IMG/VR virus record: IMGVR_UViG_3300003852_000026
Location: 1 to 39,126 of that record
Reading direction: 5' to 3' (one strand)
Source: a virus
Length of the DNA: 39,126 nt
Position 1 is the first letter of the stretch, and each line of letters begins with the position of its first letter. The position numbers were made by a program, and so were the translations under genes. A model generated the notes under the pieces. The model was given only the letters and a program-made list of their open reading frames with translations, was not told the DNA's origin and did no database searches. Below are positions 1 to 10,494 of the stretch, one piece after another.

Positions 1-753
1 TCATGTAGTTCAGGTTGTGCACGAACCCATTCGAAGTGTGTAATAGTCTCTTGCGCACAATGTAAAAAACCTGTAAAGAGATCACTCAAATATAAATCTA
101 AACACTCATTCTGTTCACGATCTTGTTCTGCTATATTCAATAATAAATTAAAAGATTATAGTTGGATAACACCCGAATTTAAACAGAAATTATCAATCAA
201 GATGAAAAATATTCCACCAGCTGGTTTTAGATTAAATCCTAAGTTATACGGTAGTAAAGGTGGTAGATGTAGTAAACGGAAATTGCCTCGCATCGAATCA
301 ATATGTCAAAACAAATCATGCAATAAAATCTTTGAACATATATCAACAACTAAACGTGTTTACTGCTGCAGAGCTTGTGCAGATCAAAATCGTTATCATC
401 CAAATTCTACCATTGTTCATCGCTCAACATATAAAGATCAACAAATGGATTCTGGTGCGGAACTTATTTTTGCAAAGCTACTCGACACAGTTAACATAAA
501 ATGGATTAAAAATCAGACTCAATATTTCTCATTTATTGGCTTAAATGGAAAGCAGAAAAGATACTACCCAGATTTCTTTTTACCTGATCATAATTTATGG
601 ATAGAAATTAAAGGCAAACGATATATAAGGCCTGATGATGAATTGCGAAGAGCGGCTGTTGGTAATATTGTTCTTATAATGGCATCAGAACTTCGCAATT
701 CATCAGCTGTTTTATCAAAAATAACGCAGATTCGCCAGGCCGGCTCTGCGTAA
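1..753 (+). CDS. Zinc-finger homing endonuclease, 5' end outside window
   Basis: The reading frame is open from the first base to the stop at 751-753, so an ATG at 202 is internal and the gene starts upstream of the window. Visible protein is 250 residues. The N-terminal part holds two Cys-rich fingers (CAQC...FCSRSC; CQNKSC...CCRAC). The C-terminal domain reads YYPDFFLP followed about 8 residues later by WIEIKGK, the PD-(D/E)XK-like core of phage free-standing homing endonucleases related to the Vsr-like group. Such enzymes cut an uninvaded allele and spread by gene conversion. It lies plus-strand beside the minus-strand tRNA array, as do the genes at 1778 and 3504. Family-level call is good; target site unknown. 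Confidence 0.8.
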   Translation, partial: SCSSGCARTHSKCVIVSCAQCKKPVKRSLKYKSKHSFCSRSCSAIFNNKLKDYSWITPEFKQKLSIKMKNIPPAGFRLNPKLYGSKGGRCSKRKLPRIESICQNKSCNKIFEHISTTKRVYCCRACADQNRYHPNSTIVHRSTYKDQQMDSGAELIFAKLLDTVNIKWIKNQTQYFSFIGLNGKQKRYYPDFFLPDHNLWIEIKGKRYIRPDDELRRAAVGNIVLIMASELRNSSAVLSKITQIRQAGSA

Positions 754-1337: not shown

Positions 1338-1484
1338 TGGTGCGCTGAGCAGGATTCGAACTGTAGTAATACAATCAATTGAGTTGTATCACAACAATAG
1401 ACTCATGTGGATTCCGGTCTACCACTGCTAACTGCAACCTCCCGGCTAAACACCGGGCGCCATTACCTGTTAGGCCATCAGCGC
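1338..1484 (-). tRNA. tRNA-like gene interrupted by 70 nt in the T-arm
   Basis: The acceptor GCGCTGA/TCAGCGC is perfect and is followed by A and CCA. The D-stem GCC/GGC has a GG-containing loop; the anticodon stem CCCGG/CCGGG is perfect. The T-stem 5' part GCAG (1432-1435) is separated from GTTCGAATCCTGC (ending at 1361) by 70 bases at 1362-1431. Removing them restores a standard 77-nt tRNA with T-arm GCAGG-TTCGAAT-CCTGC. The anticodon loop TGTTTAG would read TTT (Lys), but position 33 is G instead of U, so function is doubtful. The insert can close on itself by GTGGTAG/TTACTAC. Intron, nested tRNA relic or recombination scar are all possible. Confidence 0.6.
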
Positions 1485-1700: not shown

Positions 1701-1790
1701 AGTAGAGTGAGGGATTTGAACCGGAGGAGCTACCTCTTTCTCTCGAGCCGGTCAGAGCTCTTTTCCATGCCGTGTACTTAGGCCTCTACT
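1701..1790 (-). tRNA. Degenerate or interrupted tRNA-like gene
   Basis: Acceptor strands GTAGAG (5', near 1789) and CTCTAC (3', 1702-1707) pair, and the T-loop TTCAAAT is canonical. The T-stem is intact only if 11 bases are skipped: GAGG, then 11 nt, then G-TTCAAAT-CCCTC. This is the same position as the 70-nt insert in the unit at 1338. The anticodon arm candidate GAGC/GCTC has an 8-nt loop TCTGACCG. CCA is not encoded. Its 5' end overlaps the stop codon end of the endonuclease gene at 1778. Ser/Leu type is possible; identity unresolved. Confidence 0.4.
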
Positions 1791-2758
1791 AAATGGTTTA
1801 AAATTTCCTGTTTAATGTCATCTACTTTACCAGCATGAAGTACAATATTATTTTGTTCACGAACTAATCTAAGCTTTTCAGCATCTTGTTTCATCTTATA
1901 TGGATTTTTCGGATCTAAATAAACATTAAGAGCCGGTAAAAAGAAATCTGGGTAATACCGGCGACGTTTACCGCTACCATCAATATACCATAGCATTAAT
2001 TTTCTACTCCGTCGCCATTCGATATTCTTTTCATCTAAAAATTTTGCGATATCAACTTCCCAACTTGAATCCATTAAAATATCTTTGTATCTATACCGCT
2101 TAAAATTAGTCTCACCACCACAATTTGGATTAGCTAGTGAATTACGTGAAAGTAGTTTACTCTTACAGTCAGGACTACAGGTCTTTGCAATTCTTGTGGA
2201 TTTTCTTGTAATAAAATTAGCGTCACAGATTATACATTTTGTAAATATAAATCGTGGAAATTGGGTCATATCTAAATCTTCTACTCTCTTACTCGGTGAT
2301 GAGGAGAGATATAACCGCGGATGTGTTGCGTAATATTGTTTCTGCTGTTGCTTGCGTATTTCAACTTTACATGTATCACAATAAATTTCAGGTACATTTA
2401 TATAAGTTGTTACTAACTTCTTACAACCTTTACACGGTATTTCTTTTCGTTGTTTAGCTAATATCGGTATGTTATATTGGCGAGAACATTTATGTGAACA
2501 ACATTGTTGTGAACGATTTTTAAATGGTATATATCGCTGGCACACCGGGCAATGTTTAGGTGATTTATTGTATAATATTTCTGCTTCAATCAACTCTACT
2601 CTACCACCCGATCTACCTAGGTACTGTGGAAATGTTCGTTTTAATAACTCTCTACTAATATGTAGTTGGCGCGCGATCCAATCTGTCGGTCGGTGCTCAG
2701 TATGCCACTTCAGTATCTGTTGTCTATTTTCCTCAATAATTCGTTGTTGCTTACCCAT
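1778..2758 (-). CDS. Multi-zinc-finger homing endonuclease
   Basis: 326 residues. The N-terminus has a helix-turn-helix-like segment (WIARQLHISRELLKR, about residues 27-41). Three Cys-rich fingers follow (CPVC...CCSHKC; CKGC...CDTC; CIIC...CSPDC). The C-terminal nuclease domain has DSSWE, RYYPDFFLP and YLDPKNPYKMKQDAEK. In the last motif DPK stands where related enzymes have EIK, so a D...K catalytic pair is inferred. It should act as a mobile DNA endonuclease with modular DNA-binding fingers. The ATG at 2756-2758 has no Shine-Dalgarno sequence. The last codons overlap the 5' end of the tRNA-like unit at 1701-1790, so the gene may have been inserted against that tRNA. Confidence 0.78.
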   Translation of the reverse strand: MGKQQRIIEENRQQILKWHTEHRPTDWIARQLHISRELLKRTFPQYLGRSGGRVELIEAEILYNKSPKHCPVCQRYIPFKNRSQQCCSHKCSRQYNIPILAKQRKEIPCKGCKKLVTTYINVPEIYCDTCKVEIRKQQQKQYYATHPRLYLSSSPSKRVEDLDMTQFPRFIFTKCIICDANFITRKSTRIAKTCSPDCKSKLLSRNSLANPNCGGETNFKRYRYKDILMDSSWEVDIAKFLDEKNIEWRRSRKLMLWYIDGSGKRRRYYPDFFLPALNVYLDPKNPYKMKQDAEKLRLVREQNNIVLHAGKVDDIKQEILNHLVEA

Positions 2759-3375: not shown

Positions 3376-3451
3376 TGGTACCCCTGGCGATGGTTGCAAT
3401 CGCTGTCGCTCGGTTAAAAGCCGAATGCTTATCTCGTTAAGCTTCAAGGGC
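3376..3451 (-). tRNA. tRNA-Lys (TTT)
   Basis: 76 nt with encoded CCA. Acceptor GCCCTTG/CAGGGGT with wobble pairs, D-stem GCTT/AAGC, anticodon stem TTCGG/CCGAG around CTTTTAA (TTT), T-stem GCGAT/ATCGC with loop TGCAACC. Six bases separate it from tRNA-Ile. Confidence 0.86.
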
Positions 3452-3503
3452 GTTAAATTGAAATTAGAGGTTGTATTCCGTAGCCGCGATACTAAGTATA
3501 CTT

Positions 3504-4178
3504 ATGAAAGAACAAATCATCGAAGCAGTTCGACAATATTATAAAACATATAACAAATCTCCAGGAATTCCAAATAGTTGTAATCCTCTGATGCCTGATG
3601 TACCATGTTATGCAACAATTAAAAAATACTTCAATTCGTGGAATGAAGTCTTAAACATTGCAGATATACCATTAAACATGAAGTCACCAAAATCGAGAGT
3701 GCAAATTATATGTGCAAACTGTGGTAATACTAGAATGATACAACCTACAAGAATAAGTCAAACAAAACGCTCTTTTTGTAGTAAACATTGTGCAGGTACA
3801 TATAATAGTAAACTACCAAAACATAAAACATTTCAATCAAAAGCAGAAAAGCAAATTAGAAAATATATTACAACTAACTATCCAAATCTTGAATTCATCA
3901 CAAATAACAAATCACATATCGGTTACGAACTTGATATTTTTATACCGAGTCTCCAACTCGCTTTTGAAATAAATGGTATTCATCACTACAAACCTATATA
4001 TGGTACACCTTTATTTGAAAAAATAAAAATACGTGATAATTTACGAGTTGAAATGTGTGCTGCAAAAAATACAACACTCATAGTTTTAAATATTTCTAAA
4101 CTCTCCCAATATACAGATAAGCATATGCAACCGTTTTATCAAATAGTAGATACTGCAATTAAAGATCACATGAAATAG
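3504..4178 (+). CDS. Homing endonuclease, Vsr-like fold
   Basis: 224 residues from ATG 3504; an upstream in-frame ATG at 3471 adds 11 residues and is less likely because it lies close to tRNA-Lys. Residues about 70-105 form a Cys finger (CANC...FCSKHC). The C-terminal half has GYELDIFIPSLQLAFEING followed by HHY and a later RDNLR, the pattern of phage endonucleases with a Vsr-type nuclease core. The plus-strand orientation inside a minus-strand tRNA array and lack of linkage to other genes fit a free-standing mobile gene. The start has AT-rich DNA and no Shine-Dalgarno sequence. Confidence 0.75.
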   Translation: MKEQIIEAVRQYYKTYNKSPGIPNSCNPLMPDVPCYATIKKYFNSWNEVLNIADIPLNMKSPKSRVQIICANCGNTRMIQPTRISQTKRSFCSKHCAGTYNSKLPKHKTFQSKAEKQIRKYITTNYPNLEFITNNKSHIGYELDIFIPSLQLAFEINGIHHYKPIYGTPLFEKIKIRDNLRVEMCAAKNTTLIVLNISKLSQYTDKHMQPFYQIVDTAIKDHMK

Positions 4179-6875: not shown

Positions 6876-8187
6876 ACTTATTACTCTTCGGTGGGATGCA
6901 ATGCTGATAGTTCTCTGATAGGAACCAATACCATCTTTCCGGTCTCACAGGAGATACATTGTCACCGTAACCATCTGTAATAATGAAGATAGCATCCGGG
7001 TAACGGTCAGTTTTCTTCTTCTTCATATCCTGTTGAATATAGTCTTCAATGATATGAAATGACGTACCACCAAACCCGTAGAGCTTCTTAGAAGCAAAAG
7101 ATGTTTCGTATATCTGCGTATCAAAGCAAAACAACCTAATGTCAAACCGCTCTTCAGGTAGCGATGATGCAGCTTTCCAAAAGCGATCAGCCAGATGAGC
7201 GCAGCTACCAGATGTATCTAAAAAGAACATCACCTGTACGCGTCTGTTTTCGTCAGCAAAGGAATCTGTCTCCATTTCGGTTGGAATAAAGATCTTACCA
7301 GCACTAAGCGATTGAACGGTGCAGAAACGACGGTTAATACGCGCCCATTGATCCTTCGATTTATCAGAGCGATACATATACTTCTGCATCCAGCGCTTAA
7401 TAACGGTCTCCCATTTACTCTTCTTAACAACCTTAACGTTGACCATTACTTTAACGACTCCACCAGCAGTAGAACCAGCTTGCTTAGTGGTTTTTGATTC
7501 GTCGTCAATAGACTTCTCAACAGCCTTTTTCAGGTTATCGACTTCCTTATCAGAAAGAGCATCACAAGCTTCTTCAACCTTACCGTCAATCTCTTGCTGA
7601 GAATCAGAGTCACCAAATGCTTCACCACCTTCAAATTCACCGTGAGTGTCAACAGTTCTGCATTGACCCTTACCTTCACCTTTACCACCGCTTTGCGGCT
7701 GACCTTTGCCACCTTCACTCACGTTAACGGTCTTAGCATTCTTTATCAACTCATTGTAGTAGAAGTCCATTGAACGTTCCTTTTCAATACCGTTAGGGAA
7801 TACAGTGTCATACCAGCAGAGCTCTGCTTGGTTCATAACACGTTTACGATCAAACCCGAAGTTTTTGACTAGGCTTTCGTTAATCACAACATCAGCTGCA
7901 ATGTTACCAATCTCCGGGTGTTTACCTTTGAGACGAGCACCATGATAAAGTATCAAATGCAAAGCTTCGTGACAGATTACAAACTTGCGGTTGTAATCAT
8001 CCAGGCTAGCCCAGAACTTAGGATTAAAGTTGAATCCAAAGTAATTGCCTTCCTTGTCAAAGGTAACCGCAGCAGTTGGAATCTTGTCATTCACAACCGG
8101 GCGACCCATTTGCCACAGCCTAGAGAAGATACCGTGGTAGCACTCTAGGTCTTGCGCTATGTTAAAAAACTCATCGAGAGTTATCAT
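6853..8187 (-). CDS. Metallopeptidase-like/VWA fusion protein
   Basis: 444 residues. The N-terminal domain carries HEALH (about residues 73-77) in ICHEALHLILYHGARLKG, the signature of the DUF2201-type putative metallopeptidase domain. A Gly/Lys/Glu-rich linker follows (about 170-210). The C-terminal domain has the VWA MIDAS motif DTSGS (about 320) and a later ITDGYGD. VWA proteins of this kind work with MoxR AAA+ ATPases as metal-dependent adaptors or chaperones. The partner is encoded immediately upstream with an ATGA overlap (8184-8187), so coupled synthesis is expected. The substrate is unknown. Whether HEALH is catalytic is not shown. Confidence 0.8.
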   Translation of the reverse strand: MITLDEFFNIAQDLECYHGIFSRLWQMGRPVVNDKIPTAAVTFDKEGNYFGFNFNPKFWASLDDYNRKFVICHEALHLILYHGARLKGKHPEIGNIAADVVINESLVKNFGFDRKRVMNQAELCWYDTVFPNGIEKERSMDFYYNELIKNAKTVNVSEGGKGQPQSGGKGEGKGQCRTVDTHGEFEGGEAFGDSDSQQEIDGKVEEACDALSDKEVDNLKKAVEKSIDDESKTTKQAGSTAGGVVKVMVNVKVVKKSKWETVIKRWMQKYMYRSDKSKDQWARINRRFCTVQSLSAGKIFIPTEMETDSFADENRRVQVMFFLDTSGSCAHLADRFWKAASSLPEERFDIRLFCFDTQIYETSFASKKLYGFGGTSFHIIEDYIQQDMKKKKTDRYPDAIFIITDGYGDNVSPVRPERWYWFLSENYQHCIPPKSNKFMLKDYE

Positions 8188-9620
8188 ATGAATTTAGCAA
8201 GATTTGCTTTGATGTATTCGTTAACCTTCTTGGACTGACGCGGGGTGATATTGTCCTTCTTGTACTCAAACAAGCAGTTGTGAACGTAAGAGAACACATT
8301 ATCAAACCCACTGAAACCAGACATAGCCGTATAATCAGATGTACTCTCAATCATATCGCACAAGCAGTTTGACACATTCTCAGCTTCAGATACAGTGAGA
8401 CCAACTGATTTCTTGATGTAATTGTCAACCAGTGTAACAGTCAATGATTCAAAGAGCTGTCTACGATAGGTCGTACCTTTCACGATATACGCACCGTATG
8501 AAGCAAGCAAAGAAGTAACATTGTTGCTCGTGTAACCAAGATACGCTGAACGCGGTTTATTCACTTTTCCAGCAAGATTCTTAAAGGTCAACTTGCTGAT
8601 ATCCATTGGTGAATTACGCGCCATTTCAAGGATGTGAGACGCGAGACGCTTCTGTACATTCTTATTGGTCGAAGCACCTGCAATCACAGTCTTATACGTA
8701 TTGTAATCATTGAATACAAAGTTTTGAACAGCAAGGTTGTTCGTAGTGAGAATCACCTGCTTCTCTTCAGGTATGAACGGGAAGAAGATACTAATCCTCT
8801 TCGGGTCTTCACAGATATACTTGAAGGTGCTGTTGTAGTTATTCTCATCAGCGATGAACAGCTTAGCTTGCTCCATATCGTCAGTTTTCATAACTTCATC
8901 CAAGCGCTTGCGGTATGAACCACACTTGAGCTCAGTAATCAGTTTACTCACGTTGATCTTCTGTGGAAGCACATCACGGACGTCACCACCGTCGATATAC
9001 ATCTGAACAGCGTACTCCAAACGACGAGGGCTAACAAGATCTTTCTCCTTTGCTTCGAGTTCATTCCACCAGGAGACTGCAGACTCACCTAGACCACTCT
9101 CAAAGCGGCGACGGAAGAAGCTGAGGTCGGGTTTGTAAGGTACAATCACTTGAACATGGAAGCGATCTCTTTGCGCGGGGTCAAGCTTTTCAACATCATA
9201 CCGGACTTCACCAGCATCTTCACCATCGCTATCTGGATTAACAGCAACCCATATGATCTTGAGATTGTTGAACTTACGACCGTTGATAGACTTAAACTGA
9301 ACCAACTCCATAGTCGCATTACGAACTTTGGGTTGGCTGCGGTTATATTCGTCCAGGAAGATCGCTTGGATCTCATCATCCGCGAAGCACTTGGGGCGGA
9401 TGAGGTCGATATAAGTACTACCGTCTGCATCGGTGACTTCTTTAGGTACACCTACAAAGTCCACCCACGGGTCGAGAGTCGATGCAGAGAAGTAGCGCCA
9501 CTTCAATTTGGCGCGTTCAAATGCATCAATGATGCGCGCGGTCTTACCCACGCCGTGTTTACCTTCGAATAGTACGTTGTAGTTGTTTTTGATCCAAAAA
9601 TCGAGCTTATTGTCAGTCAT
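8184..9620 (-). CDS. MoxR-type AAA+ ATPase
   Basis: 478 residues from ATG 9620. Walker A is GKHGVGKT (about 20-27), Walker B is AIFLDE (about 95), followed by NPDSDGED and an Arg-finger region DPAQRDRF. This is the MoxR/AAA_5 pattern of ATPases that pair with VWA proteins. A TTG-started extension of 61 residues is possible but unlikely: its sequence is basic and irregular and contains the promoter at 9627-9655. That promoter puts the transcript start almost on ATG 9620. The gene overlaps its VWA partner by ATGA. The target of the ATPase is unknown. Confidence 0.82.
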   Translation of the reverse strand: MTDNKLDFWIKNNYNVLFEGKHGVGKTARIIDAFERAKLKWRYFSASTLDPWVDFVGVPKEVTDADGSTYIDLIRPKCFADDEIQAIFLDEYNRSQPKVRNATMELVQFKSINGRKFNNLKIIWVAVNPDSDGEDAGEVRYDVEKLDPAQRDRFHVQVIVPYKPDLSFFRRRFESGLGESAVSWWNELEAKEKDLVSPRRLEYAVQMYIDGGDVRDVLPQKINVSKLITELKCGSYRKRLDEVMKTDDMEQAKLFIADENNYNSTFKYICEDPKRISIFFPFIPEEKQVILTTNNLAVQNFVFNDYNTYKTVIAGASTNKNVQKRLASHILEMARNSPMDISKLTFKNLAGKVNKPRSAYLGYTSNNVTSLLASYGAYIVKGTTYRRQLFESLTVTLVDNYIKKSVGLTVSEAENVSNCLCDMIESTSDYTAMSGFSGFDNVFSYVHNCLFEYKKDNITPRQSKKVNEYIKANLAKFI

Positions 9621-9626
9621 GTTTTT

Positions 9627-9655
9627 ATTGTATGTTGATTTGTTTTGTTTTTCAA
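9627..9655 (-). promoter_or_regulatory. Promoter giving a leaderless mRNA
   Basis: -35 TTGAAA (9650-9655), 17-base spacer, -10 TACAAT (9627-9632). Only six bases separate the -10 from ATG 9620, so initiation at the usual distance starts at or next to the A of ATG. Confidence 0.65.
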
Positions 9656-9793
9656 GTTTTTTCTTCGACAATTTCGGTGTATACGTTAACGGTATATAAG
9701 GTGCATATATTACTGTTGGTGCACCAGGATGTACCTTCATCTGCTTTGGAGTTGACCACTTCATTGTCCATTTTTTTCTCATCTGAACAGGAT

Positions 9794-9818
9794 GATAGTG
9801 CAATATTATTGCACTATC
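9794..9818. promoter_or_regulatory. Perfect 12-bp inverted repeat
   Basis: GATAGTGCAATA-T-TATTGCACTATC. It lies between the stop of the 9835-10494 gene and the promoter of the first MoxR gene. It lacks a T-tract, so a regulator-binding operator or RNA hairpin is more likely than an intrinsic terminator. Confidence 0.55.
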
Positions 9819-9834
9819 AAGGAGAAACTACAGA

Positions 9835-10494
9835 TTACTCAGCGGGGGTAGATGTTTGAGGGATTTGATGTTGTGTACCGAGACCGGCATTCACAATATC
9901 AAGAGCAGCGTGGCGATCAGTATCAACATCAGAGATTTCATAACTGACACCTTCAAGCTCAATAGCTACAATACTACCGATACCATAACGCCTCAAGACG
10001 ACCTCCATATCACCAGTAGGTCTGGAAGGAGCAAGGTAATCCTTACACTCTTCTTTTGTCTTTTCACTAAACGTACCGATATTGCTCTTAACAACAAAAC
10101 GCTGAGATGCAGAAGATTGTGGAAGTACTTGAACGTAATGTTTACCAGCGTGCTCTATGATAGATGACGAGGTGTGAGTACCGTATGTTCTACCAGGAAC
10201 ATGAATTTCTCCCGGGCTAGCAATGTTAAGCTTTTCCTGCTTTTTTGTTGCGTAATCGGAATTAAGCAAACCTTCAACCTGAGACACCTTATAAATCACA
10301 CCTAGAGGATTCTTCTTCTTGTATGTTGCATCTACAATAGAGGTAAACTTAGTCGGTATATCTTTACCTTGAAGTTTGTTAATTTTATCAATCAGTTCAG
10401 CTTTGGTGATTTTTACGGCAGTAGGAGAGAAGCCGTAAGCCATCTCTGTCAACAAACTCTTTTCCATTTTATGCAGCGTCTTGATAAATTTCAT
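9835..10494 (-). CDS. Hypothetical protein, 219 aa
   Basis: Not recognised. The N-terminus is basic and helical; the rest is a polar beta-rich sequence ending in a Gln/Pro/Thr tail. No catalytic motif is visible. The ATG is preceded by TATAAATA at 10501-10508, an exact match to the T4-type late consensus, which suggests late expression and perhaps a virion role. The inverted repeat at 9794 follows its stop. Confidence 0.6.
   Translation of the reverse strand: MKFIKTLHKMEKSLLTEMAYGFSPTAVKITKAELIDKINKLQGKDIPTKFTSIVDATYKKKNPLGVIYKVSQVEGLLNSDYATKKQEKLNIASPGEIHVPGRTYGTHTSSSIIEHAGKHYVQVLPQSSASQRFVVKSNIGTFSEKTKEECKDYLAPSRPTGDMEVVLRRYGIGSIVAIELEGVSYEISDVDTDRHAALDIVNAGLGTQHQIPQTSTPAE

Follow-up and report, generated by a model that had tools for sequence, protein, structure and literature searches.

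A tRNA gene in the array of a huge phage is interrupted in its T-arm, and we confirm this interruption as real and unusual. The window, i.e. the complete stretch of 39,126 nt analyzed here, is a 39-kb virus contig, a metagenome fragment from a tailed phage. This phage is a very large or huge uncultured one with a 595-kb relative, LR756511.1, whose ATPase is 38.5% identical to the one encoded at 8184-9803; it also has relatives in IMG/VR. At about even confidence we favor the interpretation that a redundant tRNA was interrupted by recombined debris of the array over the alternative of an excised intron; instead of being spliced, the gene may be disabled.

The gene extends over 147 nt on the minus strand, from 1484 to 1338, exactly where an earlier sequence-only reading had located it. 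If 1431-1362 (70 nt) are cut out, a 77-nt form remains, GCGCTGATGGCCTAACAGGTAATGGCGCCCGGTGTTTAGCCGGGAGGTTGCAG+GTTCGAATCCTGCTCAGCGCACCA, in which all pairs of the acceptor stem (7/7), the anticodon stem (5/5) and the T-stem (5/5) are formed, the D-stem has 3 pairs, and CCA is encoded. All four stems, the 7-nt anticodon and T loops and the CCA end are therefore present once these bases are removed. The arms follow one another in the normal 5'-3' order in our scan, and not in that of a circularly permuted or split tRNA, which would put the 3' half upstream of the 5' half.

Table 1. Features of the interrupted gene, of its array and of a related phage.
Feature	Positions	Strand	Basis
Acceptor stem 5' strand, GCGCTGA	1478..1484	minus	7/7 pairs with 1342-1348
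D-arm, GCC-TAACAGGTAAT-GGC, canonical GG	1459..1475	minus	Rfam alignment, scan
Anticodon arm, CCCGG-TGTTTAG-CCGGG; anticodon would read UUU; G33	1441..1457	minus	scan
T-stem 5' strand, GCAG (positions 49-52)	1432..1435	minus	scan
70-nt insert, between positions 52 and 53	1362..1431	minus	T-stem and 7-nt T-loop fix length (scan); same region looped out by Rfam
CAGTGGTAGACCG inside insert, identical to D-arm of tRNA-Ile (5106-5005)	1415..1427	minus	13 nt exact; p 0.001 against window tRNAs
Hairpin in insert, GUGAUACAA / UUGUAUUAC	1363..1395	minus	folding
G53, T-loop TTCGAAT, T-stem 3' strand CCTGC	1349..1361	minus	canonical elbow
Acceptor 3' strand TCAGCGC, discriminator A, CCA	1338..1348	minus	pairing with 1478-1484
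Intact tRNA-Lys(TTT), same array	3379..3451	minus	Rfam 42.6 bits; scan 30.1
tRNA-Ile(GAT), 30-nt insert 5075-5046 in anticodon loop	5004..5107	minus	ARAGORN with introns; Rfam 47.3 bits; scan 25.6
Examples of ~55-nt element, L091 (LR756511.1 285000-293000)	6415-6359, 6214-6157, 5955-5897, 4238-4179, 3730-3673	minus	covariation

Our custom scan scores cloverleaf geometry and tolerates a single insert, at most about 110 nt long, within a loop or at a junction. It assigns exactly 70 nt to the insert with a score of 27.2, whereas dinucleotide shuffles of the same 5 kb (n = 30) reach at most 20.0 and the other strand at most 18.1. The covariance-model check proposed in the sequence-only reading (cmscan, 9 kb searched) recovers even the uncut gene, at 31.2 bits against a gathering score of 29 for RF00005, with 77 nt looped out in the T-loop. 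Because the scan score exceeds the shuffle maximum and Rfam agrees, the interruption is well beyond chance, and the earlier claim of a T-arm split by 70 nt, which yields a 77-nt tRNA on removal, holds. In BLAST searches against phages, matches to the spliced form cross the junction (tRNA-Gln, 81% over 63 nt, E 8e-6); the uncut gene has no match. The spliced halves fit to the base (GCAG^GTTCGAATCCTGC), and the sequence joined at 1432/1361 would read GGTTGCAG before and GTTCGAAT after the junction. The 5' edge is ambiguous: a second GCAG 7 nt on, ending at 1425, would give a 63-nt insert and a 12-nt variable loop. Furthermore, a 5-bp repeat, CAGTT, occurs at both insert edges; a join through it would produce 76 nt and a poorer T-stem, which means that the repeat does not trivially account for the good fit. 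Exact-pattern scans of IMG/VR with the spliced T-arm/acceptor, the D-arm and the 3' part retrieved no close relatives of the gene, and the neighboring proteins have either no relative or only relatives in distant phages, mostly without interrupted tRNAs.

With the loop taken as 7 nt, the anticodon is UUU, and of 353 huge-phage tRNAs a tRNA-Lys(TTT) matches best over the full length, narrowly ahead of a tRNA-Val. Judged from these sequences, the gene is probably a second, Lys-type tRNA copy. Compared with the usual CTTTTAA, its loop TGTTTAG has changes at positions 32, 33 and 38 (U32, G33, G38). Position 33 is U in 364 of the 368 uninterrupted huge-phage tRNAs surveyed; the G found here, to which the sequence-only reading had already objected, speaks against a working tRNA. 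Since an ordinary tRNA-Lys(UUU) is encoded 1.9 kb away (3451-3379), the interrupted gene is redundant, and its loop changes make it odd in the decoding loop itself.

The tRNA array lies on the minus strand between about 5350 and 920. Standard tools pick up little of it, 2 genes (ARAGORN) and 4 at the cut-off (Rfam, whole window); our scan reports uninterrupted tRNA-Gly, Lys, Ile, Glu, Ala and Tyr, each with 27-31 points. In the interrupted tRNA-Ile(GAT), taking out exactly 30 nt produces a fully canonical anticodon loop according to both ARAGORN and the scan. Several stretches show tRNA features but are resolved by no tRNA search (5225-5107, 4925-4700, 4510-4200 and 3290-3150); they speak for frequent rearrangement, of which homing-type endonucleases are a likely source. 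Three such enzymes are predicted from PHROG matches in or beside the array, at 202-753 (plus strand), 1778-2758 (minus) and 3471-4178 (plus). Two readings made by eye were discarded, i.e. a second 52/53 insert at 1797-1700, GAGG[TAGCTCCTCCG]GTTCAAATCCCTC, in a gene that is otherwise irregular, and a circularly permuted arrangement of 4799-4704 and 2980-2898, where no matching stems exist. No RNA ligase is recognizable in the part of the 39-kb fragment's proteins that was searched.

Most of the uninterrupted array tRNAs have non-canonical elbows (minus strand, 5353-5279, 3451-3295, 3065-2991, 2884-2812 and 1000-919), with T-loops such as AGCGTTA, GGCGGTA, TGCAACC and TGAAACT and D-loops often without GG; unlike them, both interrupted tRNAs have canonical elbows. 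Some of these T-loops also occur in the related phage contigs L084 and L086, and the tRNA array of the latter includes, according to ARAGORN, a tmRNA gene at 9766-10152. Directly upstream of the interrupted gene, on the minus strand, are two copies of a structured element of roughly 100 nt (1693-1590 and 1582-1495), which share TGCAGAGAAGCAC and AGTTTGCCTAYTA. This element matches no Rfam family and has no further copy in the roughly 1.26 Mb of sequence searched.

The 13 exact bases that the 5' end of the insert shares with the D-arm of tRNA-Ile indicate that the insert is at least partly tRNA debris, although the p value of this identity is 0.06 when it is set against about 240 to 350 huge-phage tRNAs. 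The GTGGTAG/TTACTAC pairing described in the sequence-only reading is present, and together with TACAA/TTGTA it can form a tRNA-like helix of 7 bp + 5 bp with about -8.9 kcal/mol, compared with -15.9 for the free fold. A partly tRNA-derived insert is thus a fair reading of the sequence. The D-arm identity makes the nested tRNA relic suggested earlier a possible source of the insert; a whole nested tRNA would call for more than this match and a helix weaker than the free fold. The insert alone, with two hairpins, is not significantly more stable than its shuffles (z -1.3), and its folding apart from the tRNA (gap 6.6 kcal/mol) is equaled or surpassed by 35% of shuffled inserts. Rfam contains no family that matches the insert or the sequence just upstream. 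A group I intron was rejected, because the insert has only 70 nt and no Rfam match to the conserved catalytic core. Likewise, the best alignment to a bulge-helix-bulge (3-nt bulges round a 4-bp helix) is incomplete, with 3 of 4 central pairs, and the model of the LR756511.1 insert family (R1) has no match in the window array with filters off.

Interrupted tRNAs recur in huge phages, and a site in the T-arm is rare. Several of these phages have small inserts, 16-93 nt long; in huge phages other than Lak-A1 and LR756511.1 they lie mostly in the anticodon or variable region, and some of those in the variable region may be ordinary long arms. Several hundred tRNAs scanned include one further T-arm candidate; this gene, L104:8647-8528, one of the LR756511.1 tRNAs, is readable as GGAG[18 nt]GTTCAATTCCTCC, which is the same 52/53 site. 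The tRNAs of Lak megaphages carry 'enigmatic' introns, one of them perhaps itself holding a tRNA, and the sequence of one intron is conserved from cohort to cohort (Devoto et al. 2019, PMC6784885), which speaks for a function in Lak phages. In Lak-A1, our scan finds 3 long inserts inside the anticodon loop or next to it, which by eye hold an acceptor plus T-arm; the insert of the window does not sit in that loop. The sequence-only reading took the known tRNA introns of phages to be large group I introns of the anticodon loop; the Lak introns (PMC6784885) and the inserts of 16-93 nt contradict this.

In LR756511.1, near 288-291 kb, at least five tRNAs are interrupted by a conserved element of ~55 nt with two covarying stems, P1 and P2, and the motifs ACTTGG-hairpin-CCCC ... 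TACAAAC. Seven of 12 pairs covary, and no shuffle reaches the covariation score. The element, which is possibly a new small intron, is located between acceptor and D-arm, in the D-arm, or between D-arm and anticodon arm. Model R1 detects 11 copies in LR756511.1 and none in 7 records of other huge phages, two of which are perhaps the same genome; nearly all other phages searched lack it as well, apart from one weak match (E 0.06). A short exact pattern of the element is absent from IMG/VR. At L091 6100-5980 and 3430-3310 the element is permuted, with GTTCGTCCC..TACAAAC before and ACTTGGACGAAC after apparently whole tRNAs, as if bringing the tRNA ends together or circularizing the tRNAs. The same tRNA region contains, after a TACAAAC element (minus strand, about 5525-5270), a stretch that by eye resembles part of 23S rRNA, ACGGTCATAAGGTAGCGA .. 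GGTAATGACGGCC, with no rRNA match in Rfam.

According to the model we favor, the starting point was a second, probably Lys-type, tRNA copy in a huge-phage array full of partial and rearranged tRNA pieces. Recombination would have joined a 70-nt piece, derived at least partly from another array tRNA, into the T-stem between positions 52 and 53. Because of the intact tRNA-Lys(UUU) nearby, the spare copy would have been free to lose its decoding function, as its abnormal anticodon loop suggests, and its transcript most likely yields no decoding tRNA. This model is favored by G33, by the intact Lys copy, by the resemblance of the insert to debris and by the messy state of the array, and an insert without a known splicing signal counts for it as well. 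On the other hand, perfect stems and a canonical elbow argue against a loss of function, since the stems should decay too; only a recent event would explain their state. The removal of exactly 70 nt without loss or gain of a base, where the CAGTT join would be worse, also speaks against debris, as do the recurrence of interrupted tRNAs in huge phages and the conserved Lak intron.

The alternative that comes closest, possible but in our view the less probable, is that the 70 nt are excised from the transcript and the halves joined to the 77-nt tRNA, for example by a nuclease together with a T4-like RNA ligase of the phage, or through the action of tRNA end-processing enzymes on a tRNA-like insert. 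Excision would restore exactly a canonical T-arm in a gene with perfect stems, an encoded CCA and a score above the Rfam cut-off; a second tRNA of the array, tRNA-Ile(GAT), gains its canonical loop in the same way, and Lak-A1, LR756511.1 and other huge phages provide precedents. However, G33 and the spare Lys copy count against it, the insert shows neither a group I or other Rfam match nor a complete bulge-helix-bulge or a match to the LR756511.1 family, and it folds apart from the tRNA no better than shuffled inserts. The tiny intron and the circular joining considered in the sequence-only reading have the fit of the two halves in their favor and nothing beyond it.

It is improbable that the insert is retained as an elongated T-arm in a tRNA-like RNA with another purpose, e.g. 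a decoy for a tRNA-cutting defense nuclease. Such a role would agree with stems that are kept while loop positions 32, 33 and 38 differ, and the altered loop beside UUU would be in line with resistance to a cut on the 5' side of the anticodon; it has been proposed that phage tRNAs evade such nucleases through changes in the anticodon loop (PMC10264068). Yet without excision the cloverleaf lies 6.6 kcal/mol above the free fold. An assembly error or chimeric contig, conceivable for a metagenome fragment, is highly improbable given that both sides fit to the base and that the contig contains a second interrupted tRNA.

Such small tRNA inserts occur in several unrelated huge phages. It is doubtful that huge phages remove them, in the present case from the T-stem, through cutting and joining by a route undescribed for bacteria or phages. 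Excision of even one insert would mean that these phages supply or recruit a tRNA-splicing system of an unknown kind; without any excision, the tRNA arrays of huge phages would be largely not what gene counts suggest. To our knowledge, bacteria and their phages have no known splicing route for tRNA inserts this small. In archaea, the non-canonical sites of tRNA introns include the T-arm. Archaeal tRNA introns at such sites are likewise small inserts outside the anticodon loop (PMC4090602), but they are cut at a bulge-helix-bulge, of which the window insert has no complete example. Turning to bacteria, the group I introns of tRNA genes comprise several hundred nt, are self-splicing and reside in the anticodon arm. 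Like the window insert, they interrupt tRNA genes (PMC3984707). The Lak inserts are alike in belonging to a huge phage and a tRNA array, in being small and not of group I, and in containing tRNA-like matter; the clearest ones in Lak-A1 lie in or beside the anticodon loop with a nested acceptor plus T-arm in our own parse, whereas the window insert lies in the T-stem at 52/53, with a D-arm match and a weak tRNA-like helix. The conserved sequence and the two covarying stems of the main LR756511.1 insert family are missing from the window, but the two phages are related and both have tRNAs interrupted outside the anticodon loop.
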